Positions 25,637 to 49,957 of a stretch of DNA of 64,000 bases are shown piece after piece. The notes below the pieces were generated by a model. It was given only the letters and a program-made list of their open reading frames with translations. It made no database searches and had not been told where the DNA came from. Where the stretch lies: the NCBI RefSeq assembly GCF_900111575.1, contig NZ_FOIF01000002.1, positions 1 through 64,000 of the forward strand, in the 5' to 3' direction. Both the position numbers and the translations under genes were made by a program. The stretch's first letter is position 1, and the number at the start of each line of letters is the position of its first letter. This DNA comes from Anaerobranca gottschalkii DSM 13577. Its GTDB lineage: Bacteria > Bacillota > Proteinivoracia > Proteinivoracales > Proteinivoracaceae.

Positions 25637-25637
25637 A

Positions 25638-26572: not shown

Positions 26573-26585
26573 AGGGGGTTTTTAA

Positions 26586-28376: not shown

Positions 28377-28402
28377 TACAGTGGATGAAAGGAAGTGATG
28401 AA

Positions 28403-33574: not shown

Positions 33575-33620
33575 GTGTTATTAGTTGTGTAAGTTAATTC
33601 ATTCACTGATTTGATTGAAA

Positions 33621-33707: not shown

Positions 33708-34997
33708 TTGAAAAGGAAAAGTTTTCCGGGTGGGATCCATCCTTTATACAACAAAGAGCTATCAAAGGATAAAGCTATTGAAAGAATGGATACACCCAAA
33801 AGAGTGAAGATTTTACTACAACAACACATTGGAGCACCATGTCAGCCTTTAGTAGAAAAGGGACAAGATGTGGTGATAGGTCAAAAGATAGGAGATACAG
33901 AAAAGTTTGTTTCTGCACCAATTCATTCAAGTATTTCAGGGAAAGTGGTGGAAATCACTGACAAGTATGTTGTCATTGAAGGAGAAGATAGGGAAGAGTT
34001 TGTTTTTGGCGAAAAGAGAGATATCGATTCTTTAACTGCCGATGAAATTAAAGGGATAGTTAGAGAAGCGGGAATAGTCGGTATGGGTGGTGCCGCATTT
34101 CCAACCCATGTAAAACTTACTCCACCTGAAGGGAAAAAGTTTGAAGCTATTATTTTAAACGGTGCTGAGTGTGAGCCTTATTTAACAATCGATGATAGAA
34201 TTATGACTGAACAAGCTGAAAAAGTAGTTTATGGTTTAAGGGCTTTACTTAAGGCTACAGGGGCTGAAAAAGGCTACATCGGTATCGAGGTCAATAAACC
34301 CCAGGCTATTCAAGCTATATCAGAGGCTATTAAAAACTATAATAATATTGAACTAGTGCCCCTTGAAGTTAAATATCCACAAGGGGGAGAAAAACAGCTT
34401 ATAAAAGCGGTTCTTAATAAAGAAGTTCCAATAGGAGGACTTCCAGTAGATATTGGTGCACTAGTTAATAATGTGTATACAGCGGCAGCTGTAGCTGATG
34501 CAATAAGGGAAGGTAAACCTCTTTATGAAAGGGGTATAACTGTTACTGGTAAAGGTGTTAAAGAACCTAAAAATATTATAGTAAAAATTGGAACTACCTT
34601 TAGGGAAGTTATTGACCAATGTGGTGGTCTAACAGAAGATGCTGCAAAAATCATAGCTGGTGGTCCTATGATGGGTAGGGCAGTTGCAGATTTAGATGAA
34701 GTTGTGACTAAAGGTACTTCTGGAATATTAGTATTGACTGAATCAGAAGTTGAATTAGTTGAAGAAAAAACTTGTATTAAATGTGCCCGTTGTGTTGATG
34801 CATGTCCAATGTATTTAATGCCCAATTATTTAGCAACTTATGCTAGAAAAGGTATGTTAGAAGAAGCCCAAAAATTACATTTGTTTAACTGTATAGAATG
34901 TGGATGCTGTTCTTATGTATGTCCATCAAGGATACCTTTGATCCATCTAATCAGACAAGGTAAATGGCAAGTAAACTCCAAAAAAGGGAGTAAATAA
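33708..34997 (+). CDS. rnfC: Rnf complex subunit RnfC
   Basis: This 429-residue peripheral subunit holds FMN and NADH sites, seen in GIVGMGGAAFPTHVK and NGAECEPYLTIDDR, an SLBB-like segment, and two [4Fe-4S] motifs near the end (CIKCARCVDACP and CIECGCCSYVCP). TTG at 33708 is preferred: AAAGGGGTG lies upstream and GGIHPLYNKE is the usual N-terminus; an upstream extension runs into the hairpin leader. It begins the rnfCDGEAB operon, the ferredoxin:NAD oxidoreductase that pumps Na+ or H+. Confidence 0.93.
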   Translation: MKRKSFPGGIHPLYNKELSKDKAIERMDTPKRVKILLQQHIGAPCQPLVEKGQDVVIGQKIGDTEKFVSAPIHSSISGKVVEITDKYVVIEGEDREEFVFGEKRDIDSLTADEIKGIVREAGIVGMGGAAFPTHVKLTPPEGKKFEAIILNGAECEPYLTIDDRIMTEQAEKVVYGLRALLKATGAEKGYIGIEVNKPQAIQAISEAIKNYNNIELVPLEVKYPQGGEKQLIKAVLNKEVPIGGLPVDIGALVNNVYTAAAVADAIREGKPLYERGITVTGKGVKEPKNIIVKIGTTFREVIDQCGGLTEDAAKIIAGGPMMGRAVADLDEVVTKGTSGILVLTESEVELVEEKTCIKCARCVDACPMYLMPNYLATYARKGMLEEAQKLHLFNCIECGCCSYVCPSRIPLIHLIRQGKWQVNSKKGSK

Positions 34998-35015: not shown

Positions 35016-35993
35016 ATGAAGGATAAATTTGTAGTTGGTCCATCTCCCCATATTAGAAGTCCTAGAGATATTAACTATATTATGTGGGATGTAGTAGTTG
35101 CCCTTATCCCTGTAATGTTAGCTTCTATAATTTTTTACGGGATGGCCGCTGTTTATATATTATTTGTAAGTACTTTTACTGCATTATTTTTTGAAGCTAT
35201 TGTATTGCATAAAAAAATAAGTATTAGAAAATTCTTCGGCGATGGTTCCGCTGCTATTACTGGTATTTTACTTGGTTTAAGTTTACCACCAGTTATCGGG
35301 AGAGAACTTGAATATTTATGGCTTGCTGCTTTAGGTTCAGCAGTAGCAATTTTAATAGGAAAACATGTCTTTGGTGGTTTAGGTAAAAACCCCTTTAATC
35401 CTGCTTTAGTTGGTAGAGCTTTCTTAGTAGCTTCTTTCTCAGAAGTAATGGCAGCTAAATGGATTACTCCTGGAGTGGATGCAGTAACTGCTGCAACAGC
35501 CTTAGCTCCTGGCGCCCCCGATTATAGTTTATTTGATATGTTTATCGGGAATATTCCTGGGAGTTTAGGTGAAACATCGGCTTTAGCTATACTAATTGGT
35601 GGTTTTTATTTACTAGCTAAAGGTCATATTGATTGGAGAATTCCAGGTGGCTTTTTAGGAGCAATGGGAGTTTATTCTATTTTCTATGTAGCTATTTCCC
35701 AAGGATTTACTCCTAATTTTATCCAATTAGCAGTTAATGAGGTTTTATTCCAATGGTTTTCTGGTACAGCCCTTTTAGCTGCAATCTATATGGCAACTTG
35801 TTATGTTACTTCTCCAACTACTAAAAAAGGTAGGTTGTATTATGGAATTGGTTGTGGTCTTATCTTAATATTAATTAGATACCATGGACAACTACCTGAA
35901 GGTGCAACCTTTGCCATCTTATTTATGAATGCTTTAACTCCTTTATTGGATAAATATACAATACCTCAAACTTTTGGGGAGGTGAAGAAATAA
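35016..35993 (+). CDS. rnfD: Rnf complex subunit RnfD
   Basis: This 325-residue membrane protein has about eight to nine hydrophobic segments and the start VGPSPHIRSPRDINYIMWDV. The flavin site is DAVTAATALAPG near residue 153, where the second Thr of TAAT would carry covalent FMN. GKNPFNPALVGRAFL is also characteristic. RnfD moves electrons between FMN and riboflavin coupled to ion movement. It overlaps rnfG by 1 base. Confidence 0.93.
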   Translation: MKDKFVVGPSPHIRSPRDINYIMWDVVVALIPVMLASIIFYGMAAVYILFVSTFTALFFEAIVLHKKISIRKFFGDGSAAITGILLGLSLPPVIGRELEYLWLAALGSAVAILIGKHVFGGLGKNPFNPALVGRAFLVASFSEVMAAKWITPGVDAVTAATALAPGAPDYSLFDMFIGNIPGSLGETSALAILIGGFYLLAKGHIDWRIPGGFLGAMGVYSIFYVAISQGFTPNFIQLAVNEVLFQWFSGTALLAAIYMATCYVTSPTTKKGRLYYGIGCGLILILIRYHGQLPEGATFAILFMNALTPLLDKYTIPQTFGEVKK

Positions 35994-37384
35994 TGAACAA
36001 CATTTTTCGTCTAATAATAACCCTTACCTTAATTGCCGCAATAGCTACAGGATTACTAGCTGTAGTAAATAATATTACTTCACCTATTATTGAAGAAGGA
36101 GCAAGACAAAGGTTAGCCCAAGCATTGGGAAGGGTTATCGATGCCGATGATTTTGAAGAAATTGATGAAAATGGAATAAAATATTTTAAAGGGTATAAAA
36201 ATGGAGAACATGTTGGTTATGTTATTAGGGTGGAGTCAAAGGGTTATGGTTCTTCCCCTATAGTAATGATTGTTGGTTTAACAACCGATGTGGTAGTAAC
36301 AGGTGTAGAAGTGTTAAGTCATAGTGAAACACCTGGACTTGGTGACAGACCTTTTGCTCCTAATAAACTTGCAGAGTTTATCGGTCAAGGACTAGAAAGT
36401 GGTATTAATTTTGATGTGGTTTCAGGTGCTACTTCTTCTAGTTTAGGGGCATTAGCAGGTGTTAATGAAGCTGTTACTATTTTAGGAAGATTATTAGGAT
36501 TAATTGCAGAAATTGACTTTGCATTGGTACCTGATGGTACTTATAAAGGTGCAGGTAGAGGTTTCGGTGGAGATATTGAAGTAGAAGTTACAATAAAGGA
36601 TGGGAAACTGGTAGATATCAAGATTTTATCCCATAACGAAACACCGGGAATTTCTGATCCAGCTTTTGAAAAAACCCCTAAAAATATTATTGAACAACAA
36701 ACATTAGAAGTTGATACTGTATCTGGAGCTACTGCTACATGTAATGGTATTAAAGCTGCTGTAAGAAATGCTTTAGCACAATTCTTCGGTGGTGATCAAG
36801 AAGAACCTGAAGATCCAATTATCTTAAGTGAAGTTGCTAATGGTAAATATGTTGGAGTTGGTCAAGGGTTATTTGGTGAAGTTAAAGTAGAAGTAGTTGT
36901 AAATAATGGTAAAATAGTTAGCTTGACAGTTGAAGCATCAGAAGATACAGCTGATTATGTAGCTATAGCTGTAGAAAAAATGACAGAAAGATTGCTAGAA
37001 GCTACTGACCTCGAACAAGTAGATGTAAAAACCGGTGCTACCAAAACTTCAGAAGGTATCCTAGAAGCAGTTAAAAATGCCTTAAGGGGTGAACCGGTAA
37101 TAGACTTAAAAGAAATTCCTAATGGAACTTACCGAGGTGAAGCTGAAGGATTCTTTGGACCGGTAAAGGTTGAAGTAACTATTAAAAATGGTGTTATTGT
37201 TGAAATCAACTATATTTCTACAGCAGATGAGACAAAAGAATATGCTGATATAGCAAGGAAAGCTATGAAGGAAAGATTAGAGGGGTCCGATACTTTAGAT
37301 GTAGATGTAAAGACTGGAGCAACCGGTACTTCTAAGGGAATCTTGAATGCCGTTAAAAATGCCCTAACCAGTGGGCTACAGTAG
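35993..37384 (+). CDS. rnfG: Rnf complex subunit RnfG with four FMN-binding repeats
   Basis: This 463-residue protein is more than twice the usual RnfG length of about 200. An N-terminal membrane anchor is followed by a standard FMN-binding domain (SETPGLGD; SGATS with Thr147). Three further, shorter FMN_bind repeats follow, each opening with a G-x-Y-x-G motif (DGTYKGAGRG, NGKYVGVGQG, NGTYRGEAEG). Flavinylation-like motifs are SGATA (Thr247), TGATK (Thr350) and TGATG (Thr444), about 95-103 residues apart. If all carry FMN through ApbE, this would be a multi-flavin wire outside the membrane. The gene order is the normal place for rnfG. Confidence 0.9.
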   Translation: MNNIFRLIITLTLIAAIATGLLAVVNNITSPIIEEGARQRLAQALGRVIDADDFEEIDENGIKYFKGYKNGEHVGYVIRVESKGYGSSPIVMIVGLTTDVVVTGVEVLSHSETPGLGDRPFAPNKLAEFIGQGLESGINFDVVSGATSSSLGALAGVNEAVTILGRLLGLIAEIDFALVPDGTYKGAGRGFGGDIEVEVTIKDGKLVDIKILSHNETPGISDPAFEKTPKNIIEQQTLEVDTVSGATATCNGIKAAVRNALAQFFGGDQEEPEDPIILSEVANGKYVGVGQGLFGEVKVEVVVNNGKIVSLTVEASEDTADYVAIAVEKMTERLLEATDLEQVDVKTGATKTSEGILEAVKNALRGEPVIDLKEIPNGTYRGEAEGFFGPVKVEVTIKNGVIVEINYISTADETKEYADIARKAMKERLEGSDTLDVDVKTGATGTSKGILNAVKNALTSGLQ

Positions 37385-37394
37385 GAGGTGCAAC

Positions 37395-37949
37395 ATGTTA
37401 GGAGAACTAACTAAAGGTTTATATAAAGAAAATCCTGTTTTTAGACTTTTACTAGGTCTATGCCCTACCCTTGCTGTAACCACCAGTGCCATAAATGGTT
37501 TTGGTATGGGTATGGCAACAACCTTTGTATTGATTTGTTCAAATATAATAGTTTCTTTAGTAAAAAAATTAATCCCAAGTGCAGTAAGGATTCCCAGTTT
37601 TATAGTAATAATTGCTACTTTTGTTACCATAGTAGATATGTTTATGGAAGCTTTTGCATATCCTTTATATGAAAATTTAGGGATTTTTATCCCCCTTATT
37701 GTTGTTAACTGTTTAATTTTAGGTAGAGCTGAAGCCTTTGCCTCTAAAGAATCAGTTTTACCATCTTTATTAGATGCCGTTGGAATGGGATTAGGTTTTA
37801 CATTGAGTTTAACAGTTCTTGGAGGTATCAGAGAAATATTAAGCGGATCTATCGGTATTTTTGGTATGCCTCCAGGTGCTTTTCTAACTTTAGGTTTATT
37901 ATTAGGTTTAATTAACTTCATTACTTTAACAAAACTTAAGAGAAGCTAG
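37395..37949 (+). CDS. rnfE: Rnf complex subunit RnfE
   Basis: This 184-residue membrane protein has six hydrophobic segments, with ENPVFRLLLGLCPTLAVTTSAING near the start and the paralogous pattern LGIFIPLIVVNCLILGRAEAFA. RnfE and RnfA are inverted paralogues that together bind a [2Fe-2S] at a pair of Cys inside the membrane; LCPT and NCLIL fit. The ATG at 37395 follows AGGAGGTG. Confidence 0.93.
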   Translation: MLGELTKGLYKENPVFRLLLGLCPTLAVTTSAINGFGMGMATTFVLICSNIIVSLVKKLIPSAVRIPSFIVIIATFVTIVDMFMEAFAYPLYENLGIFIPLIVVNCLILGRAEAFASKESVLPSLLDAVGMGLGFTLSLTVLGGIREILSGSIGIFGMPPGAFLTLGLLLGLINFITLTKLKRS

Positions 37950-37964
37950 AAAGGGGGATAATTA

Positions 37965-38540
37965 ATGAATATATCTAATCTCTTAACAATACTTTTCACT
38001 GCCATTTTTGTAAACAATTTTGTATTAAGGCAGTTCCTTGGTATCTGCCCTTTCCTAGGTGTATCGAAAAAAGTTGAAACTTCTGTTGGTATGGGTATGG
38101 CAGTAACTTTTGTTATGACTTTATCTTCAATAATAACTTGGTTTATTCAAAATACCCTTTTAAAACCTTTAAAGATTGAGTACCTTCAAACTCTAGCCTT
38201 TATTTTAGTAATAGCTTCTTTAGTACAGTTTGTTGAATTAGCAATCAAGAAAACTAGTCCGACCCTTTACAAAGCATTGGGGATTTTCTTGCCTCTAATT
38301 ACTACTAACTGTGCTGTATTAGGTTTAGCTATTCTAAATATCTCTAAAGGTTATACTTTAATTGAAACTATTTTTCATGCCATCGGTGCAGCATTAGGTT
38401 TTACTTTAGCATTAGTTTTATTAGCTAGTGTCAGAGAAAGATTAGAACTTTCTGGAGGAAATAAGTTTTTTGAAGGAGTTCCAGCTGCCCTTGTTGCTGC
38501 AGCAATTTTAGCACTAACTTTCTCAGGATTCGTATTTTAG
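37965..38540 (+). CDS. rnfA: Rnf complex subunit RnfA
   Basis: This 191-residue membrane protein has six hydrophobic segments. NNFVLRQFLGICPFLGVSKKVETSVGMG and ALGIFLPLITTNCAVLGLAILN match RnfA. Its cysteines, CP and NC, pair with those of RnfE for the intramembrane [2Fe-2S]. It sits between rnfE and rnfB as in clostridial operons. Confidence 0.94.
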   Translation: MNISNLLTILFTAIFVNNFVLRQFLGICPFLGVSKKVETSVGMGMAVTFVMTLSSIITWFIQNTLLKPLKIEYLQTLAFILVIASLVQFVELAIKKTSPTLYKALGIFLPLITTNCAVLGLAILNISKGYTLIETIFHAIGAALGFTLALVLLASVRERLELSGGNKFFEGVPAALVAAAILALTFSGFVF

Positions 38541-38563: not shown

Positions 38564-39358
38564 ATGATAATACCGATTCTGGTAATTGGTGGTATAGGTG
38601 TTGTTTTTGGTACTATGCTAGCCATTGCCTCAGTAATATTTGCTGTAGAAGTAGATCCTAGGGTAGATGCAATAAATGAAATTTTACCTGGAGCTAACTG
38701 TGGTGCTTGTGGTTACCCTGGATGTGGAGGTTTTGCTGAAGCTGTTGTAGGAGGTAAAGCCCCTATTACTGGCTGTCCTGTAGGGAGACAGAAAACTGCA
38801 GATAAAATTGCAGAGATTATGGGAATAGAAGCTAAAAGTTCTACTCAAGATACCAAAATGGTCGCAAGAGTAATTTGTAATGGTACTAGTGAAGTAGCTA
38901 AAGAGAAATTTATTTATGATGGAGTTAAAGACTGTGTATCTGCAATGCTAATTGATGGTGGTTCAAAAGCATGTAAGTACGGTTGTTTAGGTTTAGCTAC
39001 TTGTGTAAGGGAGTGCCCCTTTGATGCAATAACAATGGGAGAAAATGGTATCCCTGTTATTGACGAAGAAATTTGTACTAGTTGTCAAAAATGTGTTATT
39101 GCTTGTCCAAAGGATGTAATCCGTATGGTTCCCCAAGGAAGTCAGGTTCATGTGTTATGTAACTCAATAGACAAAGGTGCTAGTACTATGAAAGTGTGTA
39201 AAGTGGGCTGTATTGGTTGTAGGAAATGTGCAAAGGTTTGCCCAGAACAATGCATAACTGTAGAAAACAACCTTGCAGTTATCGATAATTTCAAATGTAC
39301 TGCCTGTGAGAAGTGTATAGGGGAGTGCCCAACTAACGCTATTAAGAAAGTACAATAG
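38564..39358 (+). CDS. rnfB: Rnf complex subunit RnfB
   Basis: This 264-residue protein has one N-terminal membrane anchor, a CGACGYPGCGGFAEA four-Cys motif near residue 46, then ferredoxin-type motifs: CLGLATCVRECP, CTSCQKCVIACP, CIGCRKCAKVCP and CTACEKCIGECP. It is the entry point for reduced ferredoxin. The C-terminal pair seen here is the usual clostridial form. It is the last rnf gene and is followed by a strong terminator. Confidence 0.95.
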   Translation: MIIPILVIGGIGVVFGTMLAIASVIFAVEVDPRVDAINEILPGANCGACGYPGCGGFAEAVVGGKAPITGCPVGRQKTADKIAEIMGIEAKSSTQDTKMVARVICNGTSEVAKEKFIYDGVKDCVSAMLIDGGSKACKYGCLGLATCVRECPFDAITMGENGIPVIDEEICTSCQKCVIACPKDVIRMVPQGSQVHVLCNSIDKGASTMKVCKVGCIGCRKCAKVCPEQCITVENNLAVIDNFKCTACEKCIGECPTNAIKKVQ

Positions 39359-39424: not shown

Positions 39425-39454
39425 CTGACATTTACTATTATTCAGTTGTATAAT
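39425..39454 (+). promoter_or_regulatory. Probable promoter of the Mrp cluster
   Basis: CTGACA (39425-39430) and TATAAT (39449-39454) are 18 bases apart, just upstream of mrpE and after the rnfB terminator. This suggests Rnf and Mrp are transcribed separately although adjacent. Confidence 0.65.
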
Positions 39455-39488
39455 GGAGTTACATTCCAGATATAAAGGAGGAGTTTTT

Positions 39489-39995
39489 TTGACTAGATTA
39501 AAAGGTAAAACTCCATTGATTTTATTTTTAATTTTGTTTGCTTTTTGGATTATAGTAGCTGAGACTGTGGAAATACAACATTTATTAGTAGGGATAGTGG
39601 TAGCTTATTTAGTAGAGATATTTAATAGGGATTTTTTAAAGGATTTTCATTTTTACGGTAAAAAAAATTTTATAATACAAATTATAACTCTAATCCATAT
39701 TACAATAATTCTTATTAAGGACATGATTATTGCTAATATTCAAGTTGCAAAGATCGTCCTTTCTCCCAAAATGCCAATAAGTCCCGGAATTGTAACTTTT
39801 AAAACAAAATTAAAATCACCATTAGCAAGGACTTTGCTAGCAAATTCTATTACTTTAACCCCTGGAACATTAACCATTGATGTGGATGAAGATATTTTTG
39901 TCGTTCATTATCTAACTGAACAAAACGCTGTAGATGTTCAAAACTGGGCAGTAAAATCAAAAATGCTTTATCTGGATGGTGAAAAGGATGGATAA
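39489..39995 (+). CDS. mrpE: Na+/H+ antiporter subunit MrpE
   Basis: This 168-residue protein has two or three hydrophobic segments and the MrpE landmarks PGIVTFKTKLKSPLARTLLANSITLTPGTLTIDV. TTG at 39489 is preferred, with AAAGGAGGAG six to seven bases upstream; a longer frame from 39453 starts in the promoter region. It opens the Mrp cluster. Confidence 0.9.
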   Translation: MTRLKGKTPLILFLILFAFWIIVAETVEIQHLLVGIVVAYLVEIFNRDFLKDFHFYGKKNFIIQIITLIHITIILIKDMIIANIQVAKIVLSPKMPISPGIVTFKTKLKSPLARTLLANSITLTPGTLTIDVDEDIFVVHYLTEQNAVDVQNWAVKSKMLYLDGEKDG

Positions 39996-40251
39996 TTTAT
40001 TTATAGGGACAGCCATCGCTTTGATGATTTTAGTTTTTCTTTGCTTGTATCGGGCGATTATAGGACCAAGGACAATAGACAGAGTTGTATCCATAAATAT
40101 TATAGGAACAAAGGCTTTAATTGTTCTTTCCCTTATTTCCTTTGTTTTTAATGAGACCTTTTATTTAGATGTAGCTGTTGTTTATGCTTTAATTAGTTTT
40201 ATCATGACAATAGGTGTATCAAAGTATATTGATACTGAAAATATAGATTAG
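39976..40251 (+). CDS. mrpF: Na+/H+ antiporter subunit MrpF
   Basis: This protein of up to 91 residues has three hydrophobic segments and the MrpF pattern YRAIIGPRTIDRVVSINIIGTKAL. It overlaps mrpE. Two starts are possible: ATG at 39976, or ATG at 39988 giving MDNLFIG; the sequence does not settle which. Confidence 0.88.
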   Translation: MVKRMDNLFIGTAIALMILVFLCLYRAIIGPRTIDRVVSINIIGTKALIVLSLISFVFNETFYLDVAVVYALISFIMTIGVSKYIDTENID

Positions 40252-40263
40252 GGGGTGCCAAAA

Positions 40264-40578
40264 TTGTCCTTTATGTCGATAATTATTGCTGTATTATTAT
40301 TTTTCAGTGTTTTTTTCTTTTCCGTTGGCACCATCGGGTTATTGCGATTGCCCGATACTTATACTAGGATGCATGCCACAACTAAAGGTGATACTTTAGG
40401 GGCAGGTTTAGCATTGTTAGCTCTAGCTTTATATAATCTCGATAAACCATTTGTTGCTGCTAAACTTTTAATTATCATAGTATTTGTCTGGATAACTAAT
40501 CCTACCGCTGCCCATATAATTGCCAGGGCTCAATACAAAAAAGACTTTCTCGAAAAAACCCAAGGGAAGGGGGATTAG
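40264..40578 (+). CDS. mrpG: Na+/H+ antiporter subunit MrpG
   Basis: This protein of about 104 residues has three hydrophobic segments and the MrpG motif GLLRLPDTYTRMHATTKGDTLG. TTG at 40264 is preferred because GGGGGTG lies seven bases before it; a GTG at 40255 would fall inside the ribosome site. It follows mrpF by a few bases. Confidence 0.88.
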   Translation: MSFMSIIIAVLLFFSVFFFSVGTIGLLRLPDTYTRMHATTKGDTLGAGLALLALALYNLDKPFVAAKLLIIIVFVWITNPTAAHIIARAQYKKDFLEKTQGKGD

Positions 40579-40580
40579 TT

Positions 40581-40823
40581 ATGGAGGTATTACACTTTTT
40601 GTTATTAACTTTTCTTGTAGTTTGTGCTATAGCTGTATCTAGAATTAAGGATTTGCTTGGTGCAGTTATAATTTTTGCTGCCTACAGCTTAATAATGGCT
40701 ATTATTTGGCAACAATTAAATGCTCCGGATATCGCCCTTACAGAAGCTGCGATGGGAGCAGGTGTTACCACCTTGTTGATGATGGTTGTTATCAGTAAAA
40801 CTAGGAGGAGAGAAGAAAAATGA
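40581..40823 (+). CDS. Small Mrp/Mbh-type subunit (DUF4040, MbhD-like; MrpA tail part 1)
   Basis: This 80-residue membrane protein matches a segment normally found near the C-terminus of MrpA (KDLLGAVIIFAAYSLIMAIIWQQLNAPDIALTEAAMGAGVTTLL). In Mbh hydrogenases and in archaeal or thermophile Mrp clusters it is a separate gene, MbhD. The conserved acidic residues APDIALTEA are present. It overlaps the next gene by 4 bases. Confidence 0.85.
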   Translation: MEVLHFLLLTFLVVCAIAVSRIKDLLGAVIIFAAYSLIMAIIWQQLNAPDIALTEAAMGAGVTTLLMMVVISKTRRREEK

Positions 40824-41128
40824 GAGTTATAATTTCTACTATCTCCCTTTTAGTTATAGGTATAATTTTATTGATGATGGTGGCTGAAATGCCGGAATTT
40901 GGTTCTCCTTCAAATCCGTCAAATAACATAGTAAGCCAAAGGTTTACTGAAGAAGTTGTTGAAGATACTAATGTCAAAAATATCGTATCGGCAATAATAA
41001 CTGATTATAGGGCTTATGATACTATAGGTGAAACAACTGTCCTTTTTACCGGAATTGCCGCCGTCCTTACAGTTTTAGGTGCCCACATAAAAGCTGGGCA
41101 AAACAAAGGAAGTGAAGAAAATGAATAA
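40820..41128 (+). CDS. Small Mrp/Mbh-type subunit (MbhE-like; MrpA tail part 2)
   Basis: This 102-residue protein has a hydrophobic N-terminus and a second hydrophobic stretch near residues 78-95. The ITDYRAYDTIGETTVLFTGIAAVLTVLG pattern corresponds to the extreme C-terminus of MrpA or the MbhE subunit. Together with the previous gene it replaces the MrpA tail as separate polypeptides. Confidence 0.82.
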   Translation: MRVIISTISLLVIGIILLMMVAEMPEFGSPSNPSNNIVSQRFTEEVVEDTNVKNIVSAIITDYRAYDTIGETTVLFTGIAAVLTVLGAHIKAGQNKGSEENE

Positions 41129-41552
41129 AAATAGTGTTGTTTTACAGACCGTTGTTAAAATAATTATACCCTTTATTCAAGTTTACGGAATATTTATCAT
41201 TCTCAATGGTCACCTATCCCCTGGTGGCGGGTTTGCTGGAGGGACAATTTTAGGTAGTAGTTTAATCTTATATTCTTTAGCTTATGGTGTTAAAAAAGGG
41301 ATTGAACGTTTCCCGAGAAATAATGCAAAAATTTTAGAAAGTACCGGTGGTTTAATTTTTATCTTAATTGGTTTACTAGGAATTGTTAAAGGAGGCAATT
41401 TTTTATCTAATAATTTATTCTCTTCTTTAGGTAGCTTTGGTAAACTATTTAGTGGAGGCATTATTCCTGTAGTAACTTTAGCCATCGGTATTAAAGTTGC
41501 AAGTACAATTGTAACACTTTTCTATCACCTGTTAGAGGAGAAGAAAATATGA
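41121..41552 (+). CDS. mrpB: Na+/H+ antiporter subunit MrpB
   Basis: This 143-residue membrane protein has four hydrophobic segments and the MnhB motif IQVYGIFIILNGHLSPGGGFAGG. ATG 41121 is preferred with AAAGGAAGTG upstream; GTG at 41112 would lie within that site. Its stop overlaps the mrpC start. Confidence 0.92.
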   Translation: MNKNSVVLQTVVKIIIPFIQVYGIFIILNGHLSPGGGFAGGTILGSSLILYSLAYGVKKGIERFPRNNAKILESTGGLIFILIGLLGIVKGGNFLSNNLFSSLGSFGKLFSGGIIPVVTLAIGIKVASTIVTLFYHLLEEKKI

Positions 41553-41920
41553 TGGAATTTATTAGGGCTTTAATTACCAATTATTACTATTTTGTTTCGA
41601 TATTGTTATTCCTTATTGGATTTCATACTATGCTTACCCATTCAAATCTTATCAAAAAAGTTATTGGAATGAATATTATGGAAACATCAATTTTCCTGTT
41701 TTTTGTTGCAATAGGTTATGTTGATGGAAAAAATGCGCCAATTTTAAATGAAAAGGCAGTAGGCTATATTAACCCTTTGCCATCGGCACTAATTTTGACT
41801 GGTTTAGTGGTAGGAGTAAGTTTAACAGCTTTTTCATTAAGTTTAATTGTTAAACTCTATAAATATTATGGTACTTTAGATGCCGATGAGATTATGAGGA
41901 TAAGGAGTCAAGAAGAATGA
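41549..41920 (+). CDS. mrpC: Na+/H+ antiporter subunit MrpC (NuoK-like)
   Basis: This 123-residue protein has three hydrophobic segments typical of NuoK/MrpC. Landmarks are TMLTHSNLIKKVIGMNIMETSIFLFFVA and NPLPSALILTGLVVGVSLTAFSLSL, including the acidic residue METS in the middle segment. It overlaps its neighbours by 4 bases on both sides. Confidence 0.92.
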   Translation: MMEFIRALITNYYYFVSILLFLIGFHTMLTHSNLIKKVIGMNIMETSIFLFFVAIGYVDGKNAPILNEKAVGYINPLPSALILTGLVVGVSLTAFSLSLIVKLYKYYGTLDADEIMRIRSQEE

Positions 41921-43398
41921 TACACATACCTATTATAATGATTGTATTATGCTTGTTATCTGCCTTTTTAATACCTTTAATCAGTAAGTTTAAACCTGGA
42001 ATAATCAGTCCGATGATTAGACTAACCCTTTTATTTAATACTATAGGTACATTTTTACTTTTTAAATATATAAATGATCATGGCCCCTTTGAATATTACT
42101 TAGGGGGGTGGCAACCTCCATGGGGGATTGCTATAACAATTGATTATTTATCATTATTTATGGTACTTGTAATAAACATAATCTCTTTTTTAATTGTAAT
42201 CTATGCCGATGCTGATATATGCCATGAAATTGGAAATGATAATTGTCCGTGGTTTTACACTCTATTTATACTATTAGTGGGAGCAATGATTGCTTTAGCA
42301 TTATCTAATGATATATTTAATATTTTTGTCTTCACTGAAATAACAACTATTACAGCATGTGGTATAATAGTAGTAAAACCCCACAAAATGTGTGTTGAAG
42401 CAGCTTTTAAATATTTAATATTGAGCACCTTAGGCTCTGGGCTAATTTTGTTAGGTATCGCCCTTTTATATATGGTAACTGGCCATTTTAACTTAAACTT
42501 TATAGCAGGGGAATTGACTTATGCAATCAATTTATATCCATTAAATATTATAGTATCTTTGGCCCTGTTTATTGTTGGTTTTGGAATAAAATCAGCTTTA
42601 TTTCCCTTACATGTCTGGTTACCTGATGCCCATTCATCAGCTCCATCACCCTCTAGTGCTATTTTATCGGGGGTTGTAGTTAAAATCTATGCAATAGTTT
42701 TATTGCGAATAATCTACAAAGTTTACGGTATCGGAATCTTTACCCAAATTCCTATTCCGGAGATAATTTTAGCAATGGCTACTTTAGCAATTTTTGCTGG
42801 CTCATTATTTGCTATAGCCCAAGAAGATATAAAAAGGATGTTAGCTTTTTCCTCAGTAGCACAAATTGGTTATATATTTTTAGGAATTGCATTGTTAAAC
42901 TTAAATAGTGTATCTGGAGGGATTCTTCATATCGCTAACCATGCAATGATGAAATCACTATTGTTTTTATCAGCAGGGGCAATTATCTATAAAACTGGGG
43001 TAAGGAAAATTAGTCAATTAGAGGGTATGGGTTTTAAAATGCCGATAACGATGATGTTATTTAGTATAGGGGCATTATCTATGGTAGGTATTCCTGGTTT
43101 CAATGGTTTTATTAGTAAATATTACCTGGTAATTGGAGCACTAGATGCCCATAAACCCTTTTACGCTTTAGTGATAATTATCAGTAGCTTATTAAATGCA
43201 GTTTATTACTTACCTATTGTATTAAAGGCTTTCTTTGGGCAAAAAGGGGATGTTTCTTTAGGTAATGATGGTTTACCAAAAAGGATGTTAGTGCCTATGC
43301 TTGTTCTAGGAGCTGCATGTATTATATTTGGACTAATACCAGGCAATTTATTTAACCTTGTTCAAAGGGCAGCAGAGATTTTATTATCAGTAAATTAA
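41917..43398 (+). CDS. mrpD: Antiporter subunit MrpD-like (NuoN/M/L family), first of three
   Basis: This 493-residue protein of about 14 membrane segments has the family's ion-path residues: Glu in IFVFTEITTIT near residue 140, Lys in FGIKSALFPLHVWLPDAH near 223, and a second Lys in LSGVVVKIYAI. GFISKYYLVIGALDAHK follows in the C-terminal half. Its closest pattern is MrpD. The three paralogues at 41917, 43415 and 44905 are consecutive. Confidence 0.9.
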   Translation: MIHIPIIMIVLCLLSAFLIPLISKFKPGIISPMIRLTLLFNTIGTFLLFKYINDHGPFEYYLGGWQPPWGIAITIDYLSLFMVLVINIISFLIVIYADADICHEIGNDNCPWFYTLFILLVGAMIALALSNDIFNIFVFTEITTITACGIIVVKPHKMCVEAAFKYLILSTLGSGLILLGIALLYMVTGHFNLNFIAGELTYAINLYPLNIIVSLALFIVGFGIKSALFPLHVWLPDAHSSAPSPSSAILSGVVVKIYAIVLLRIIYKVYGIGIFTQIPIPEIILAMATLAIFAGSLFAIAQEDIKRMLAFSSVAQIGYIFLGIALLNLNSVSGGILHIANHAMMKSLLFLSAGAIIYKTGVRKISQLEGMGFKMPITMMLFSIGALSMVGIPGFNGFISKYYLVIGALDAHKPFYALVIIISSLLNAVYYLPIVLKAFFGQKGDVSLGNDGLPKRMLVPMLVLGAACIIFGLIPGNLFNLVQRAAEILLSVN

Positions 43399-43414
43399 AT
43401 ACGGGGGGCTTAAT

Positions 43415-44902
43415 ATGAGGGATCAAATCATTAACTTTTTACCTGTTTGGGCGGTTTTATTACCAATATTATCAACAATACCCTTATTTATAATAGAGCA
43501 AAAGTCTCCTAAACTAAGGGATTTGTTTGCTGTAGTAATTTCTACCTTGACCTTTTTACTAGTGTTAGCGATGTATCCTGCAATTAATAGTGGACAAGTT
43601 ATCTATTTAGAATATCCTAGGATTTTCCCGCCCTTTGGAATATCCTTTAGGGTTGACTTTTTAGGCTATGTTTTAGCGCTAATTTCATCTTTTGTTTGGC
43701 TCCTATGTGTAATCTATTCTAAAGAATATATGTGCAAGGAACATAGCTGTAATAGATTCTATCCCTTTTTACTTTTAAGTCTCGGTGGATGTTTAGGGGT
43801 AGTCCTAACCGGTGATTTATTTAGTCTATTCTTGTTTTTTGAACTAATGTCTTTAGCATCATATGTCCTAGTAGTTCATGAGGAATCCCCTGCAGCGATG
43901 AGGGCAGGCTATAAATATTTAATGTTAACATTAGTGGGAGGCTTATCGTTATTTTTCGGTATTGTTATAACTTTTGAGGTGTTAGGAACTGTAAGTTTCA
44001 ATGATACTGTGATGTTTGAGGTTGCTAATGGATTAGCCTTTACTGCATTTTTGTCATATTTAATAGGGTTTGGTATGAAAATGGGAATTTTTCCCCTACA
44101 TGTTTGGCTGCCAGATGCCCATCCAGTAGCACCGTCTCCAGCTAGTGCTTTACTTTCGGGAATTATGTTAAAGACAGGGGCCTATGGTTTATTAAGGGTT
44201 ATTTACCAAATATTTGGTCCTAATTTATTGATGGAAGCAAATTGGCATAAAATTCTACTAGTCCTAGCCGGTCTAACAATATTTTTAGGTTCAGCAGTAG
44301 CCATTGCTCAAACAGATTTAAAAAGAAGGTTAGCCTATTCAAGTATTGGGCAGATGGGCTATATACTTCTAGGCATGTCTTTACTGACTGAAAATGCTTT
44401 AATCGGCGATATTTTCCACATTCTTTCCCATGCTATGATGAAAGCCACACTATTTTTAGCGGCAGGAATTATAATTTTTAAAACTGGGAAAAAGAAAATT
44501 GCTGATTTAAAGGGTATAGGTTATGAAATGCCAATTACGATGATTTGTTTTACTATAGCTGCTTTAGCAATGATAGGAATACCGCCTTTTAATGGCTATG
44601 TAAGTAAATTATTACTTTCTATCGGTGCTTTAGATGCAGGGTATTCTTTTTATGTATTATTATTAATAATTAGTAGCTTGATGAACGGGGTATATTACCT
44701 ACCTATAATTATAGCTGCATTTTTCGGTAAAGAAATTGATGGTGCTAAAATTAAGGTGCCCCTTTTTAAAGAAGCTGCCCCTGCTATGCTGTTTCCGATA
44801 GTAATATTAGCAGCTTTTTGTTTGATTTTTGGTCTGTTTCCTAAAAATTTAGCTTTAGAACTTTCTGAATTAGCAGCAAAACTATTATTAGGAAGGGGAT
44901 AG
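43415..44902 (+). CDS. Antiporter subunit MrpD-like, second of three
   Basis: This 495-residue polytopic membrane protein has the same design as its neighbour: FLFFELMSLASYVLVVHEES with the key Glu, FGMKMGIFPLHVWLPDAHPVAPSPASALLSGIMLKTG with both Lys, and LAYSSIGQMGYILLG. It is clearly paralogous to the genes on both sides and probably arose by duplication. Its separate role (another proton or sodium path) is inferred. Confidence 0.88.
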   Translation: MRDQIINFLPVWAVLLPILSTIPLFIIEQKSPKLRDLFAVVISTLTFLLVLAMYPAINSGQVIYLEYPRIFPPFGISFRVDFLGYVLALISSFVWLLCVIYSKEYMCKEHSCNRFYPFLLLSLGGCLGVVLTGDLFSLFLFFELMSLASYVLVVHEESPAAMRAGYKYLMLTLVGGLSLFFGIVITFEVLGTVSFNDTVMFEVANGLAFTAFLSYLIGFGMKMGIFPLHVWLPDAHPVAPSPASALLSGIMLKTGAYGLLRVIYQIFGPNLLMEANWHKILLVLAGLTIFLGSAVAIAQTDLKRRLAYSSIGQMGYILLGMSLLTENALIGDIFHILSHAMMKATLFLAAGIIIFKTGKKKIADLKGIGYEMPITMICFTIAALAMIGIPPFNGYVSKLLLSIGALDAGYSFYVLLLIISSLMNGVYYLPIIIAAFFGKEIDGAKIKVPLFKEAAPAMLFPIVILAAFCLIFGLFPKNLALELSELAAKLLLGRG

Positions 44903-44904
44903 AA

Positions 44905-46965
44905 ATGGAACTATTCTCAAAGGGTATGGGGGCTGAACTCATACCGTTTCTAATCGTGATTTTACCAATACTTGGGGCTTTTTTAACTTTTATCTTTAGG
45001 AAAAATTCTATAATGAGAGATCTAATGGCTGTTTCTATAACAGTGGTAATTTGGTTATTATCTTTAATGTTAATACCAGCTTTGAAAAATGGTGCAATCC
45101 GATTAATTTTAAATGATTTTTTAGTAATTGGTTTAACTTTTAAAATTGATTACTTTAGTTTAGTATTTCTTAACCTTTTTACCCTTGTTTGGATGTTAGC
45201 TACCATTTATGCAACTAATTATATGGCATTTGAACACCGTCAAACCCGTTTTTTTGTATTTTTGTTATTGACATATACTGGCTCTTTAGGGGTAGTTGCA
45301 GCTGGTGATTTCTTTACTTTGTTTCTATTTTTTGAGTTAATGGCTTTTTGTTCCTATGTACTAGTAATTCATGAAGAAAGCGAAAAAGCGATGAAAGCTG
45401 GTCACTTATATCTTTTCTTAGGGGTAATAGGCGGGTTGGCTTTGTTATTAGCGATAATATTCCAGTATAACCATACAGGAAGTATGGCTTTCAATAGCTT
45501 GTTACCTTTATTTGAAGGGGATAGTGGAAAATTATTTACAATTCTTTTATTGTATACATTGGGATTTGGTTTAAAAGCTGGGATGGCACCCCTTCACATT
45601 TGGCTGCCTCAAGCCCATCCTATTGCCCCATCACCAGCTAGTGCCCTATTATCAGGTATTATGATAAAAACTGGTGCTTACGGATTAATTAGGGTATTTG
45701 CATCAACCTTTAGTTATACATCTGAAATATCTACCTTTTATAGTGAAACAATTGGACAATATGGATATTGGTTGATTTGGGCTGGAATAATTACTATGTT
45801 TATAGGTGCTTTTTTAGCCTTATTTCAACAAGGTGCTAAAAATATCTTGGCATATTCAAGTGTTAGCCAAATAGGCTATATAATTATGGGGATAGGTTGT
45901 GCCGCTTACCTTGGCAGTTATGGTGCCATGGCTATGTCTGGGGTTATTTATCACACTATCAACCACGCTTTGTTTAAAGGGGCATTATTTTTAACAGTAG
46001 GAGCAATATATATTTATACCCATGACTTAGATATAACAAGGGTTAGGGGGTTAGCCAGTAAATATCCCTTTTTAATGATAGTATTCTTGGTATCAGCCTT
46101 TGGTATAGCTGGGGTTCCTGGTTTTAATGGATATCCTAGCAAGTCTATTCTTCACCATGCTATAGTAGAAGCCTATGAATATAATGGTTTAATAAGTTTA
46201 TGGTGGGCAGAAAAGATTTTTACCTTAACCAGTGCTCTCACAATATGTTATTTTATTAAATTGTTCCGGGGTCTGTTTTTGGGAGAGATGCCAAAGAAAT
46301 TTAAAGAACTACCGGATACACCACTAGTGATGAAATCAGTATTAACGGTTTTCGCCACATTAATGTTGTTTATTGGGATTTTTCCCCATGTACCATTAAA
46401 AGGTATTGTACTAAAAGGAGTAAGTGTATTTTCATATCAACCTTATTCTGTTGCTTATGTAGAAAAGCTTAATGTCTTTAACAGCCATGATTTGTTGGCA
46501 ATAGGGATTACCTTTTTTATAGCTGGTGTTATTTATTTCACCTTTGAAAAGTTTAATCTATATAATCTACAATTTCCTCAGTGGTTAAGTGTTGAAAAGA
46601 TGTTCTATATGCCAATAGCAAAAGGTTTTATGTTTATTTGTCTAGGGCCTTCAGTAGTATTAGATCAAACTGTGAATAAAATGTACCATGGAACAGGACA
46701 AGCATCTATGGATGTATTTAAGCATATAGGTGAGATTGAAAACTCAATAGATAAAGCCTATTCTAAAGCTGGAACTATTTCGACATCTATCTCTGAAGAT
46801 GCTCCAGATAAAAAATGCGTTAATAATCAACGGACTTTTTGGGAGAAATTATCTGTTAATCCTGAGTGGAATTTAAAAAATCTTAACTTTGATAGTATTA
46901 TAGTAGTTTGTTTATTTACAATTCTCTTAGTAATTCTTGTATTTTTTAGCAAAGGACTATTATAA
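44905..46965 (+). CDS. Antiporter subunit NuoL/MrpA-like, third of three
   Basis: This 686-residue membrane protein, the longest of the three, has FLFFELMAFCSYVLVIHEES, FGLKAGMAPLHIWLPQAHPIAPSPASALLSGIMIKTG and LAYSSVSQIGYIIMG. The extended C-terminus has extra membrane segments, which makes it the likely MrpA-type or NuoL-type member, but it lacks the MrpA tail, which is encoded by the small genes at 40581-41128. It ends the cluster. The C-terminal residues include a soluble stretch of about 60 residues before a last membrane helix. Confidence 0.87.
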   Translation: MELFSKGMGAELIPFLIVILPILGAFLTFIFRKNSIMRDLMAVSITVVIWLLSLMLIPALKNGAIRLILNDFLVIGLTFKIDYFSLVFLNLFTLVWMLATIYATNYMAFEHRQTRFFVFLLLTYTGSLGVVAAGDFFTLFLFFELMAFCSYVLVIHEESEKAMKAGHLYLFLGVIGGLALLLAIIFQYNHTGSMAFNSLLPLFEGDSGKLFTILLLYTLGFGLKAGMAPLHIWLPQAHPIAPSPASALLSGIMIKTGAYGLIRVFASTFSYTSEISTFYSETIGQYGYWLIWAGIITMFIGAFLALFQQGAKNILAYSSVSQIGYIIMGIGCAAYLGSYGAMAMSGVIYHTINHALFKGALFLTVGAIYIYTHDLDITRVRGLASKYPFLMIVFLVSAFGIAGVPGFNGYPSKSILHHAIVEAYEYNGLISLWWAEKIFTLTSALTICYFIKLFRGLFLGEMPKKFKELPDTPLVMKSVLTVFATLMLFIGIFPHVPLKGIVLKGVSVFSYQPYSVAYVEKLNVFNSHDLLAIGITFFIAGVIYFTFEKFNLYNLQFPQWLSVEKMFYMPIAKGFMFICLGPSVVLDQTVNKMYHGTGQASMDVFKHIGEIENSIDKAYSKAGTISTSISEDAPDKKCVNNQRTFWEKLSVNPEWNLKNLNFDSIIVVCLFTILLVILVFFSKGLL

Positions 46966-46966
46966 T
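46937..46966 (+). promoter_or_regulatory. Possible promoter for the MOSC-MogA/ApbE genes
   Basis: TTGTAT (46937-46942) and TATAAT (46961-46966) are 18 bases apart and lie at the 3' end of the preceding antiporter gene. A short hairpin, GGGATGGC/GCCATCTC (46981-46999), follows in the leader. Confidence 0.45.
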
Positions 46967-47040
46967 ATGATATAATTTAAGGGATGGCTTTTGCCATCTC
47001 AAAATTTTATCCAAAACTATCTTTAAAGGAGGATATCCCC

Positions 47041-47958
47041 ATGCAAGTAGTTTCTGTTTCAATAAGTGAAAAAAAAGGTATGAAAAAGACGCCGATAAAT
47101 AAAGCTAAACTAATAGAAGGATTTGGTATAGAAGGAGATGCCCATGGAGGAAAATGGCATAGACAAGTAAGTCTATTAGCTGAAGAAAGCATTAATAAAA
47201 TGAAAGACTTAGGGTTAGATGTCGATTATGGAAGTTTTGCAGAAAATATAACTACTAGTGGAATAGAGTTAAATTCCTTGCCGATAGGTACCCTTTTAAA
47301 AATTGGAGAAGAAGCTTTGCTATCTGTAAGTCAAATCGGTAAAGAATGTCATACCAGATGTGCTATCTATCATCAAGCAGGGGATTGCGTAATGCCTAGA
47401 GAAGGAATTTTCGCTTATGTTTTAAAGGGTGGAGAAATTAAAGCTGGTGATAAAATAGAAATACTCGAAAATTATACTGCAGCTGTTCTTACAATAAGTG
47501 ACAAAGGCTCTAAGGGTGAAAGGGTTGATACTGCCGGACCTAAAATTCAAACTTTACTAGCAGGTTTAGGAATAACGACAATAGAGTCCGCTATTGTACC
47601 TGATGATTACAAAGATATTCAAAGTATTTTAAGAGACTGGATAGAAGTTGAAATAAATTTAATCATTACAACTGGAGGAACAGGTATTTCCCCAAGGGAT
47701 ATAACACCAGAAGCAACACAACCTTTAATTGAAAAACCCATTCCAGGTATAATGGAAGCTATAAGGTATAAAAGTGGGAAAATTACCAGTAGAGCTTATT
47801 TAACCCGGGGAATAGCAGGAGTTGCTAAAAAATCACTAATAATTAACTTGCCGGGAAGTGAAAAGGCAGTTACAGAAAGTTTAGAAGTAATTTCTGAGTT
47901 TTTAATCCATGGTTTAGAAACTCTCACTGGAAAGAGTAAAGATTGTGGTAGAAAATAA
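47041..47958 (+). CDS. MOSC domain-MogA/MoaB fusion protein
   Basis: This 305-residue fusion has an N-terminal MOSC domain (about 1-145; EGFGIEGDAHGGKWHRQVSLLAEESI and the conserved Cys of GKECHTRCAIYH). The C-terminal part is a MogA/MoaB molybdopterin adenylyltransferase-like domain (VLTISDKGSKGERVDTAGP, TTGGTGISPRDITPEA). Both parts serve molybdenum/tungsten cofactor handling, which the formate dehydrogenase at 28403 requires. ATG 47041 follows AAAGGAGG; an upstream frame lacks a site. Confidence 0.9.
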   Translation: MQVVSVSISEKKGMKKTPINKAKLIEGFGIEGDAHGGKWHRQVSLLAEESINKMKDLGLDVDYGSFAENITTSGIELNSLPIGTLLKIGEEALLSVSQIGKECHTRCAIYHQAGDCVMPREGIFAYVLKGGEIKAGDKIEILENYTAAVLTISDKGSKGERVDTAGPKIQTLLAGLGITTIESAIVPDDYKDIQSILRDWIEVEINLIITTGGTGISPRDITPEATQPLIEKPIPGIMEAIRYKSGKITSRAYLTRGIAGVAKKSLIINLPGSEKAVTESLEVISEFLIHGLETLTGKSKDCGRK

Positions 47959-47998
47959 CTAGCTTAGATTTTTAAATTGATTTAAGAAGGTGTTTAAT

Positions 47999-49021
47999 AT
48001 GAGAAAAAATTTAATAATACTACTTATAATAATTTCAACTGTTATAACAGGGTGTAACTTTGGAAAAAGGGAAAATCTTACTGAGTATCAAACCATTCGA
48101 AGAAGTTTTTTCACTATGGACACTATTTTAGATATAGTTGTTCAGGTAGAGGATGAAAACCAGGGAAAGGATGCAATAGAAAAGGCTTATGCTGAAATAC
48201 AAAGGCTGGAAAATATATTAAGTGCTACAATCCCTACCAGTGAAATAACTGCTATAAATAAAAATGCTGGTATAGGACCAGTTAAAGTAAGTCCTGAAAC
48301 CTTTTATCTTCTAGAGAAAGGGATTGAATTTGGAGAATTAACGGAGGGGAAGTTTGATATAACTATTGCTCCATTACTTAAATTATATGATTGGAAAGAA
48401 GGAAGAAAACATAGGGAGCTACCCCCTTCTGAAAAAATTGCCCAGGCTATGGAACTAGTAAACTATCAGGCTATTCAGTTAGATAAGGAAAATATGAAGG
48501 TTTATTTACCTATAAAGGGAATGGAAATAGATCTAGGAGGAATAGCTAAAGGTTATATAGTTGATAGGGCAGTGGAAACCTTAAAAGAACATGGAATAAA
48601 ATACGGGTATGTCAATGGCGGAGGAGATATTCGCTTTTTAGGTACTAAATATGATGGCACTCCGTGGAGGATAGGAGTAACAAATCCAAGGGGTCAAGGT
48701 AATATTGCCGTTGTGGAAATCAAAGATGGTGCTATCGTTACCTCTGGTGATTATGAACGGTACTACTTTACAAAAGATGGACAAAGGGTTCACCATATTA
48801 TTGATCCCGACACAGGGGTTTCTGCAACCTATGCACAAAGTGTAACAGTTTACGCTTCTAATGCCACATTAGCTGATATATTATCAACTGCCCTTTTTAT
48901 GTTTCCAGCCGATGAAGGGTTAGAAATAGCTAAAAAATTAAATGTAGAGGTCTTAATAATTTCTTCCGATGGAGAAATCTACATGACCCCTATAATAAAG
49001 GAGATGACAAAAATTAATTAA
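47999..49021 (+). CDS. apbE: FAD:protein FMN transferase ApbE (lipoprotein)
   Basis: This 340-residue surface lipoprotein (lipobox VITGC, Cys18) attaches FMN covalently to Thr of RnfG and RnfD-type motifs. Family regions are FTMDTILDI, EIDLGGIAKGYIVDRA near residue 175, YVNGGGDIRFLG, and HHIIDPDTG near the C-terminal third. ATG 47999 follows AAGAAGGTG. It likely flavinylates the RnfG and RnfD encoded 9-12 kb upstream. Confidence 0.95.
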   Translation: MRKNLIILLIIISTVITGCNFGKRENLTEYQTIRRSFFTMDTILDIVVQVEDENQGKDAIEKAYAEIQRLENILSATIPTSEITAINKNAGIGPVKVSPETFYLLEKGIEFGELTEGKFDITIAPLLKLYDWKEGRKHRELPPSEKIAQAMELVNYQAIQLDKENMKVYLPIKGMEIDLGGIAKGYIVDRAVETLKEHGIKYGYVNGGGDIRFLGTKYDGTPWRIGVTNPRGQGNIAVVEIKDGAIVTSGDYERYYFTKDGQRVHHIIDPDTGVSATYAQSVTVYASNATLADILSTALFMFPADEGLEIAKKLNVEVLIISSDGEIYMTPIIKEMTKIN

Positions 49022-49034
49022 GGAGTAAGGTGTA

Positions 49035-49412
49035 ATGAAAAAGTGGGACTTTATTATAATTGTTGTGGTAGCAGTCTTAGCATTAACAATAGGGACAATT
49101 TACTATCTTAATAGAGATTCTTCTACAGAAAATGCAATGATAATTATTGAAGTAAATGGAGTAGAAGTGGGAAGAGAACCTTTATACTCTCCTGGTAGAG
49201 ATAAAGTAGTTATATACAAAGGGCCAGTAGGTGAAACGAAAGTTCAATTTTTTGAAGTTGGGGCAAGGGTGTTGACTTCAGATTGTCCTGATAAAATTTG
49301 TATTTTATTTGGTATAATGAATAGGTCTGGTCAAAGCAATGCTTGTTTACCTAATAGGGTGGTTTTTCGGATTGAAGGAGGTAATAAAGACACCGATATT
49401 AATATACGTTAG
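49035..49412 (+). CDS. NusG domain II-like membrane-anchored protein
   Basis: This 125-residue protein has an N-terminal membrane segment (residues 6-25) and a NusG_II-type domain (IIIEVNGVEVGREPLYSPGRDKVVIYKGPVGETKVQFFEVGARVLTSDCPDKIC). The SDCPDKIC-x(n)-ACLP pair of cysteine sites is family-typical. The family sits beside ApbE and Gx transporters in flavin-based electron-transfer loci. It follows apbE by 13 bases. The biochemical role is unknown. Confidence 0.85.
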   Translation: MKKWDFIIIVVVAVLALTIGTIYYLNRDSSTENAMIIIEVNGVEVGREPLYSPGRDKVVIYKGPVGETKVQFFEVGARVLTSDCPDKICILFGIMNRSGQSNACLPNRVVFRIEGGNKDTDINIR

Positions 49413-49423
49413 GGTGGGGAGTA

Positions 49424-49957
49424 ATGCGTAGATCTAATATTTTAAAATTAGTTTATAAAATGGTATATATAGGTATTTTAATTTCCATGGCAACAGTAGT
49501 TCATGCTGTGGAACGACTTTTACCTTTATTGCCAAGTCCTGTCCCTGGTGCAAAACTTGGATTAGCAAATATTTTTACTCTAGTTACTTTAAATCTTTTT
49601 GGATTTATTGAGGGTTTTTACGTAGCTGTGCTTAGGACTTTTTTAGCAGCTTTAATTACAGGGAATTTTGGCATAACTTTTATCCTCAGTTTATCTGGAG
49701 CTGTTTTAAGTACAATAATTATGGGATTGATGGTTAAATTTTTGAAGAAATATATCAGTAATATGGGGATAAGTATAGTAGGCGCGATTTTCCATAATAT
49801 TGGACAATTATTAGCAGCTAGTTTATTTTTAGATAGTTTTTTTGTTTTTTCTTATTTACCTTATCTTTTGCTATTTGCTATTCCTACAGGGATTTTTGTA
49901 GGACTTTGTACTAATTTTATTTTGAGGGTTTTAAACAAAAATATCCAAATCAACTAA
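49424..49957 (+). CDS. Gx transporter family membrane protein
   Basis: This 177-residue polytopic protein has about five hydrophobic segments and the family start VHAVERLLPLLPSPVPGAKLGLANI. The family is related to energy-coupling-type substrate components and is often mislabelled heptaprenyl diphosphate synthase component I. With ApbE and NusG-II it forms a conserved trio linked to covalent flavin and quinone-like electron transfer. The transported compound is unknown. Confidence 0.85.
   Translation: MRRSNILKLVYKMVYIGILISMATVVHAVERLLPLLPSPVPGAKLGLANIFTLVTLNLFGFIEGFYVAVLRTFLAALITGNFGITFILSLSGAVLSTIIMGLMVKFLKKYISNMGISIVGAIFHNIGQLLAASLFLDSFFVFSYLPYLLLFAIPTGIFVGLCTNFILRVLNKNIQIN

Follow-up and report, generated by a model that had tools for sequence, protein, structure and literature searches.

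What could an Rnf complex do with an RnfG that carries four predicted FMN sites instead of one? RnfG has been proposed to move between the [2Fe-2S] cluster of RnfA/E and the FMN of RnfD (PMC12174285), and ordinary RnfGs, such as those of C. tetanomorphum (7zc6_G) and A. woodii (9eri_G), have about 190-207 aa and one FMN. The RnfG encoded in the window, the 64,000-nucleotide stretch of Anaerobranca gottschalkii DSM 13577 DNA analysed here, shares with them the N-terminal helix, the first FMN domain (D1) and the place of its gene between rnfD and rnfE, but has 463 aa and four predicted FMN sites. All window features described below lie on the + strand.

Four predicted FMN domains on one RnfG

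The rnfG gene (35993..37384), defined from the ORF list, Pfam and NCBIfam, starts with ATG and overlaps rnfD by 1 base. Pfam recognizes FMN_bind four times along its product, at 56.6 bits for D1, 82.5 for D2, 45.5 for D3 and 53.3 for D4 against a cut-off of 22 bits, and the whole 463-aa protein scores 206.6 bits. The TIGR01947 rnfG model matches in two stretches and scores 111 bits, above its cut-off of 102, while the D1 stretch alone gives 73.8 bits and falls under that cut-off. A helix of aa 2-48 in the AlphaFold2 model (35996..36136) contains the membrane anchor, read from the sequence as hydrophobic aa 7-25, and is followed by the fold of D1 (aa 81-164; 36233..36484), a canonical RnfG FMN domain with HSETPGLG; a membrane helix and then an FMN domain is the arrangement that defines an RnfG. 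Behind it lie D2 (aa 183-265; 36539..36787; HNETPGIS), which is present in every class member examined, D3 (aa 285-368; 36845..37096), and D4 (aa 379-461; 37127..37375), which is missing in the congener G001.

The predicted FMN sites are Thr147 in D1 (codon 36431..36433, DVVSGAT), Thr247 in D2 (36731..36733, DTVSGAT), Thr350 in D3 (37040..37042, DVKTGAT) and Thr444 in D4 (37322..37324, DVKTGAT), spaced by 100, 103 and 94 residues. After shuffling, the RnfG sequence contains a mean of 0.0035 flavinylation motifs by chance, against the four present. More than one FMN_bind domain with an [S/T]GA[S/T] motif defines a multi-flavinylated protein; this RnfG has four. The sequence-only reading had placed four FMN-binding units on RnfG, with motifs at these threonines, and the four matches above cut-off in an intact rnf operon bear out the units, while the motifs end exactly at the positions given. 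It had also described a full domain followed by three shorter repeats. There is indeed one D1 and three more units, but D2-D4 are complete FMN_bind domains of ~83 aa, and D1 seems longer because the membrane helix and an RnfG-specific N-terminal part and loop belong to it. We conclude that the prediction of four flavinylation-competent domains on one RnfG is well supported.

Genomic context of rnfG

The rnfC-D-G-E-A-B operon is complete and in order, with rnfG as its third gene and every subunit recognized by its own NCBIfam model. It comprises rnfC (33714..34997; start set by match, the mechanical ORF beginning at 33615), rnfD (35016..35993), rnfG, rnfE (37407..37949; start put at an in-frame GTG/TTG-type position in ORF 37371-37949), rnfA (37965..38540) and rnfB (38564..39358). 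RnfD has its own flavinylation-like site, DAVTAATAL. We considered an RnfD without a flavin site and rejected it, this motif being within the variation among other RnfDs.

The 11 ORFs that separate rnfB from apbE (39453..47958) include Mrp-type Na+/H+ antiporter genes and encode a MOSC/MoCF protein. They are followed by apbE (47990..49021; PF02424), encoding a flavin transferase with a lipoprotein-like N terminus, then by a NusG_II gene (49035..49412) and by a gene (Gx; 49424..49957) for a PF07456 protein, the family of the FAD-exporter S subunit EetB. An ApbE-NusG-II-Gx trio about 10 kb downstream had been noted before, and apbE does begin 10.6 kb downstream. The trio is flavinylation and FAD-export machinery; on gene context alone, the NusG-II protein could be called EetA. 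ApbE and an EetB-family FAD exporter subunit, two components by which FLEET systems are recognized, thus both occur in the window (PF02424, PF07456). We considered the trio as support for an RnfG wire and rejected it as such evidence: ApbE and FAD export are equally required by an ordinary RnfG and by RnfD, and a locus with a one-domain RnfG (L094) likewise has ApbE nearby.

The gene order from rnf to apbE is the same in another class member, G002 (L116). 'Ca. Contubernalis alkaliaceticus', with Rnf at HUE98_01685-01710, FmnB at 01770 and the next pair at 01775-01780 (PMC10608574), probably has it as well, with 11 genes between if its tags step by five. A second apbE of this genome, on contig C4 (L110:3864-6091; G000 C4:70363-72590), is preceded by a gene for a lipoprotein of two near-identical halves that matches no Pfam family and may represent a novel ApbE-associated protein.

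Upstream of the rnf operon, the window contains HydC/HydB (NuoE/NuoF)-like genes (25139-28376, by reading) directly before a formate dehydrogenase-like gene (28385-31087). The latter is split by an in-frame TGA (29459-29461, context HCARL-U-HAPT) that is most likely a selenocysteine codon; ORFs 28385-29461 and 29474-31087 would therefore be one selenoprotein gene. Together with the HydC/HydB-like genes, it suggests an NAD-linked, possibly electron-bifurcating complex.

Flavin pockets and predicted structure

D1 is similar to the C. tetanomorphum RnfG chain 7zc6_G (1.7e-14). The other domains match 8p2b, the single-domain crystal structure of CbFMN4-D1 in which the FMN-Thr bond is visible (PMC10339131), with 7.9e-13 for D2, 2.9e-7 for D3 alone and 2.1e-9 for D4 alone. 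In CbFMN4-D1 the flavin lies between Tyr11 and Leu40, Thr37 touches N5, Thr67 carries the FMN and Ser69 touches N3 (PMC10339131). Read off the alignments, the equivalents of residues 11/37/40/67/69 are Y/T/L/T/S in D1, F/T/I/T/T in D2, L/T/Y/T/T in D3 and F/T/Y/T/T in D4. All four domains have the covalent Thr, the N5-contacting Thr and a hydroxyl residue (S/T) at position 69, and the stacking residues vary. CbFMN4 and SaFMN3, verified multi-FMN proteins and hence a precedent (PMC10339131), are likewise built of tandem FMN_bind domains; they have not been described as Rnf subunits, and their domains are >80% identical to one another (PMC10339131), whereas D1-D4 are only 24-52% identical and are fused to RnfG. 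Because of this lower likeness, the redox potentials of D1-D4 could possibly differ.

These pockets bear on a reading in which flavinylated D2-D4 work only within the complex: they would buffer electrons, or serve as extra shuttles that raise throughput from RnfA/E to RnfD, with no outside acceptor. D2, constant in the class, retains the ETPG pocket of D1, as this reading would have it, but ETPG is gone from D3 and D4. Moreover, if the potentials resemble that of SaFMN3, -184 mV (PMC10339131), electrons on the arm would not readily return to NAD+. We regard such a buffer as a rather unlikely role for D2-D4, though one to be taken seriously.

An AlphaFold2 model (26 sequences; mean pLDDT 91.7, pTM 0.54) has four well-formed domains and a long N-terminal helix; the linker at aa 267-272 is of low confidence and the mutual placement of the domains is uncertain. 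A Foldseek search with the model returned solved RnfG chains first and CbFMN4-D1 next. The model is compatible with the 'beads-on-a-string' form of multi-flavin proteins (PMC11334425). Because a SaFMN3 domain is 26 x 26 x 44 A in size (PMC10339131), three extra beads and their linkers would reach the near-membrane space and are unlikely to bridge a Gram-positive wall by themselves. The sequence-only reading had proposed a multi-flavin extracellular wire that extends Rnf electrons beyond NAD and ferredoxin. A path beyond these partners is plausible with four flavinylation-competent domains, and is a published idea (PMC8238504); 'wire' overstates it, since the modelled domains are separate and uncertainly placed and a few small domains are unlikely to span the wall.

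Multi-domain RnfG across the class

Our class sample comprised 13 genomes from 7 genera and 4 families, including this genome (G000, a draft of 110 contigs, 99.2% complete). Multi-domain RnfG occurs in 13/13 and one-domain RnfG in 0/13, with open frames of 277-587 aa (the G012 protein includes a masked stretch). In the fetched operons, where multi-domain rnfG stands between rnfD and rnfE without exception, RnfG most often has 4 domains; G004 has 2, the congener G001 has 3, and G007, G008 and G009 have 5 each. D1 and D2 are constant in the class and the tail varies. Outside the class, two-domain RnfGs occur in the rnf operons of L025, L036, L037 and L062. RnfG-like proteins with 3-4 FMN_bind domains were also seen at L019, L029 and L030, with no rnf genes in the fetched stretch. 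A MAG of candidate division NPL-UPA2 encodes, at L032:4762-12830, an RnfG-like protein of two domains without Rnf genes, flanked by a CcdA/DsbD-like membrane protein gene and an Mrp antiporter operon (both by reading).

In a tree of domains, the D1s separate from the others. The D2s of class members form a modestly supported cluster (69), and a further cluster, with support 97, unites the D3 and D4 domains of this genus with those of G002. Because of this grouping, we consider that the tail probably arose lineage by lineage. In G001, the body of the last domain is that of D3, and at a shared AAAAATGCC repeat it joins the closing 27 bases of D4, which are the same as in the window. Since G002 has four domains and these 27 bases are the end of the window's D4, G001 appears to have lost D4 in frame, through recombination of one repeat end with another, and a collapse during assembly is unlikely to account for its shorter protein.

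Such ease of change invites the view that D2-D4 have no redox activity in vivo and are passive repeats propagated by recombination, either unflavinylated or partnerless. Domain number changes easily, the loss in G001 is clean and in frame, and the D3 motif of G002 is degenerate, with its glycine lost (TTAT). However, dN/dS between the window and G001 is ~0.09 for D1, ~0.12 for D2 and ~0.14 for D3 (Nei-Gojobori; approximate, as dS is 0.7-1.0), and D2 and D3 are thus under purifying selection close to the D1 level; D4 can be compared with G002 only, where dS is near saturation. The pocket residues are also kept, and no class member has a one-domain RnfG. A passive tail is therefore improbable. 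The degenerate motif in G002 does imply that not every site is indispensable, and a domain number of 2 to 5 that no fixed geometry is required; both count against the flavin arm favoured below.

Quinones and candidate electron acceptors

A UbiA-type (UbiA-superfamily) prenyltransferase, the marker of quinone synthesis in FLEET systems, was found in 0/13 class genomes, while a control search was positive in 14/14 well-known genomes. The class is therefore probably quinone-less, and any outside acceptor would need a non-quinone exit. As in the flavin-based EET of Listeria (PplA, FmnB/ApbE, EetB; PMC9973259), ApbE here adjoins a PF07456 (EetB-family) gene; in contrast to Listeria, with no UbiA-type enzyme found, the demethylmenaquinone route is probably absent and Rnf would supply the electrons. 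We also considered a general tie between multi-domain RnfG and quinone loss. It is unsupported: in the wider phylum outside the class, among the matches listed, the trend is opposite, long RnfG frames being rarer in UbiA-less genomes, a comparison in which frame length is a rough proxy for domain number and related genomes are not independent.

Candidate partners exist in this genome. The only other FMN_bind proteins found in it are two lipoproteins, one of 114 aa close to the end of contig C84, with one domain 53% identical to D2 over the domain, and one of 247 aa on contig C7, with two motifs, which we take to be reminiscent of PplA. As possible outside partners, these lipoproteins speak against a mere buffer. 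The genome also encodes two NrfA-type cytochromes (PF02335; 362 and 329 bits), which could be acceptors; ResB-like and cytochrome-assembly genes adjoin each locus (L139:7032-10475, G000 C11; L140:71-3347, G000 C20), and an NrfH-like gene was noticed next to neither. Their occurrence in 4/13 class genomes does not track domain number, and we rejected NrfA as a universal partner. An NrfA homologue in G002 (G002:C1:604678-605814, L142) has three TAA stops within the match, which may mean that the gene has decayed or that the match is frame-broken. No single acceptor gene follows the trait among the 13 class genomes, a result that counts against an outward exit and agrees with a buffer. The opposite trend of frame length outside the class also counts against such an exit.

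Electrons might instead run inward, from extracellular donors through Rnf to reduce NAD+ or ferredoxin. Rnf is reversible (PMC12174285) and the anatomy of this RnfG leaves the direction free. SaFMN3-like potentials would, however, be too high for NAD+ or ferredoxin reduction without energy input, and no outside oxidase was identified here. We consider an inward arm very improbable.

A proposed flavin arm on the Rnf complex

We lean modestly towards a reading in which D1 performs normal Rnf chemistry while D2-D4 form a flavin arm that feeds nearby extracytosolic acceptors. We favour it because all four domains exceed the cut-off with a full motif and D2-D4 match a crystal domain with an FMN-Thr bond, because D2 and D3 are under purifying selection and RnfG is multi-domain throughout the class, and because ApbE and the EetB family occur in the same neighbourhood. 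An exit is preferred over a buffer since electrons at SaFMN3-like potentials would not readily go back to NAD+. D1 would most likely be the ordinary electron shuttle from RnfA/E to RnfD, and ApbE, supplied with FAD via EetB, would most likely load all four threonines. D2-D4 would then be a tethered, flexible arm, reduced by D1 or directly by RnfA/E, that passes electrons to carriers or reductases near the outer membrane face; the candidate recipients here would be the one-domain and two-motif FMN_bind lipoproteins and the two NrfA-type cytochromes. That every one of the four threonines is flavinylated, the route of the electrons and the identity of their acceptors are all inferred.

The idea of such an RnfG as a multi-flavin second path was already published in 2021. 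Meheust et al. 2021 (PMC8238504) describe multi-flavinylated RnfGs in several RNF clusters and regard them as a likely second route by which electrons reach alternative acceptors outside the cytosol. The present protein likewise combines more than one FMN_bind domain with a place in an RNF cluster and the same proposed path, and does not differ in kind from those described there, except that the multi-heme fusion of Christensenellales is not present here. The same paper refers to Methanosarcina acetivorans, where an Rnf-linked exit uses a multiheme cytochrome instead of flavins, a functional precedent (cited in PMC8238504). We found in the accessible portion of PMC8238504 no description of class-wide presence or of variation in the tail. 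New here are the occurrence throughout the sampled class, the D1-D2 core that stays constant while the tail varies, and the loss of a domain between congeners; our reading of the trio and the probable lack of quinones are also new. The finding is mainly a well-supported instance of a published idea, with a class-wide distribution added.

Should D2-D4 carry flavin and take part in electron flow, Rnf would gain a side exit to extracellular acceptors that alters the energetics of the pump, and this would explain how quinone-less anaerobes could respire outside the cell. The relatives with two, three and four domains, where cultured, would be natural comparisons. More speculatively, and as a tentative extension, a quinone-less class of Bacillota may use Rnf, via a retained multi-flavin RnfG, as an outward electron exit. 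Such a respiratory branch would need no quinone: electrons would pass from ferredoxin or NADH through covalent flavins and, in some members, perhaps on to NrfA-type cytochromes and FMN lipoproteins.
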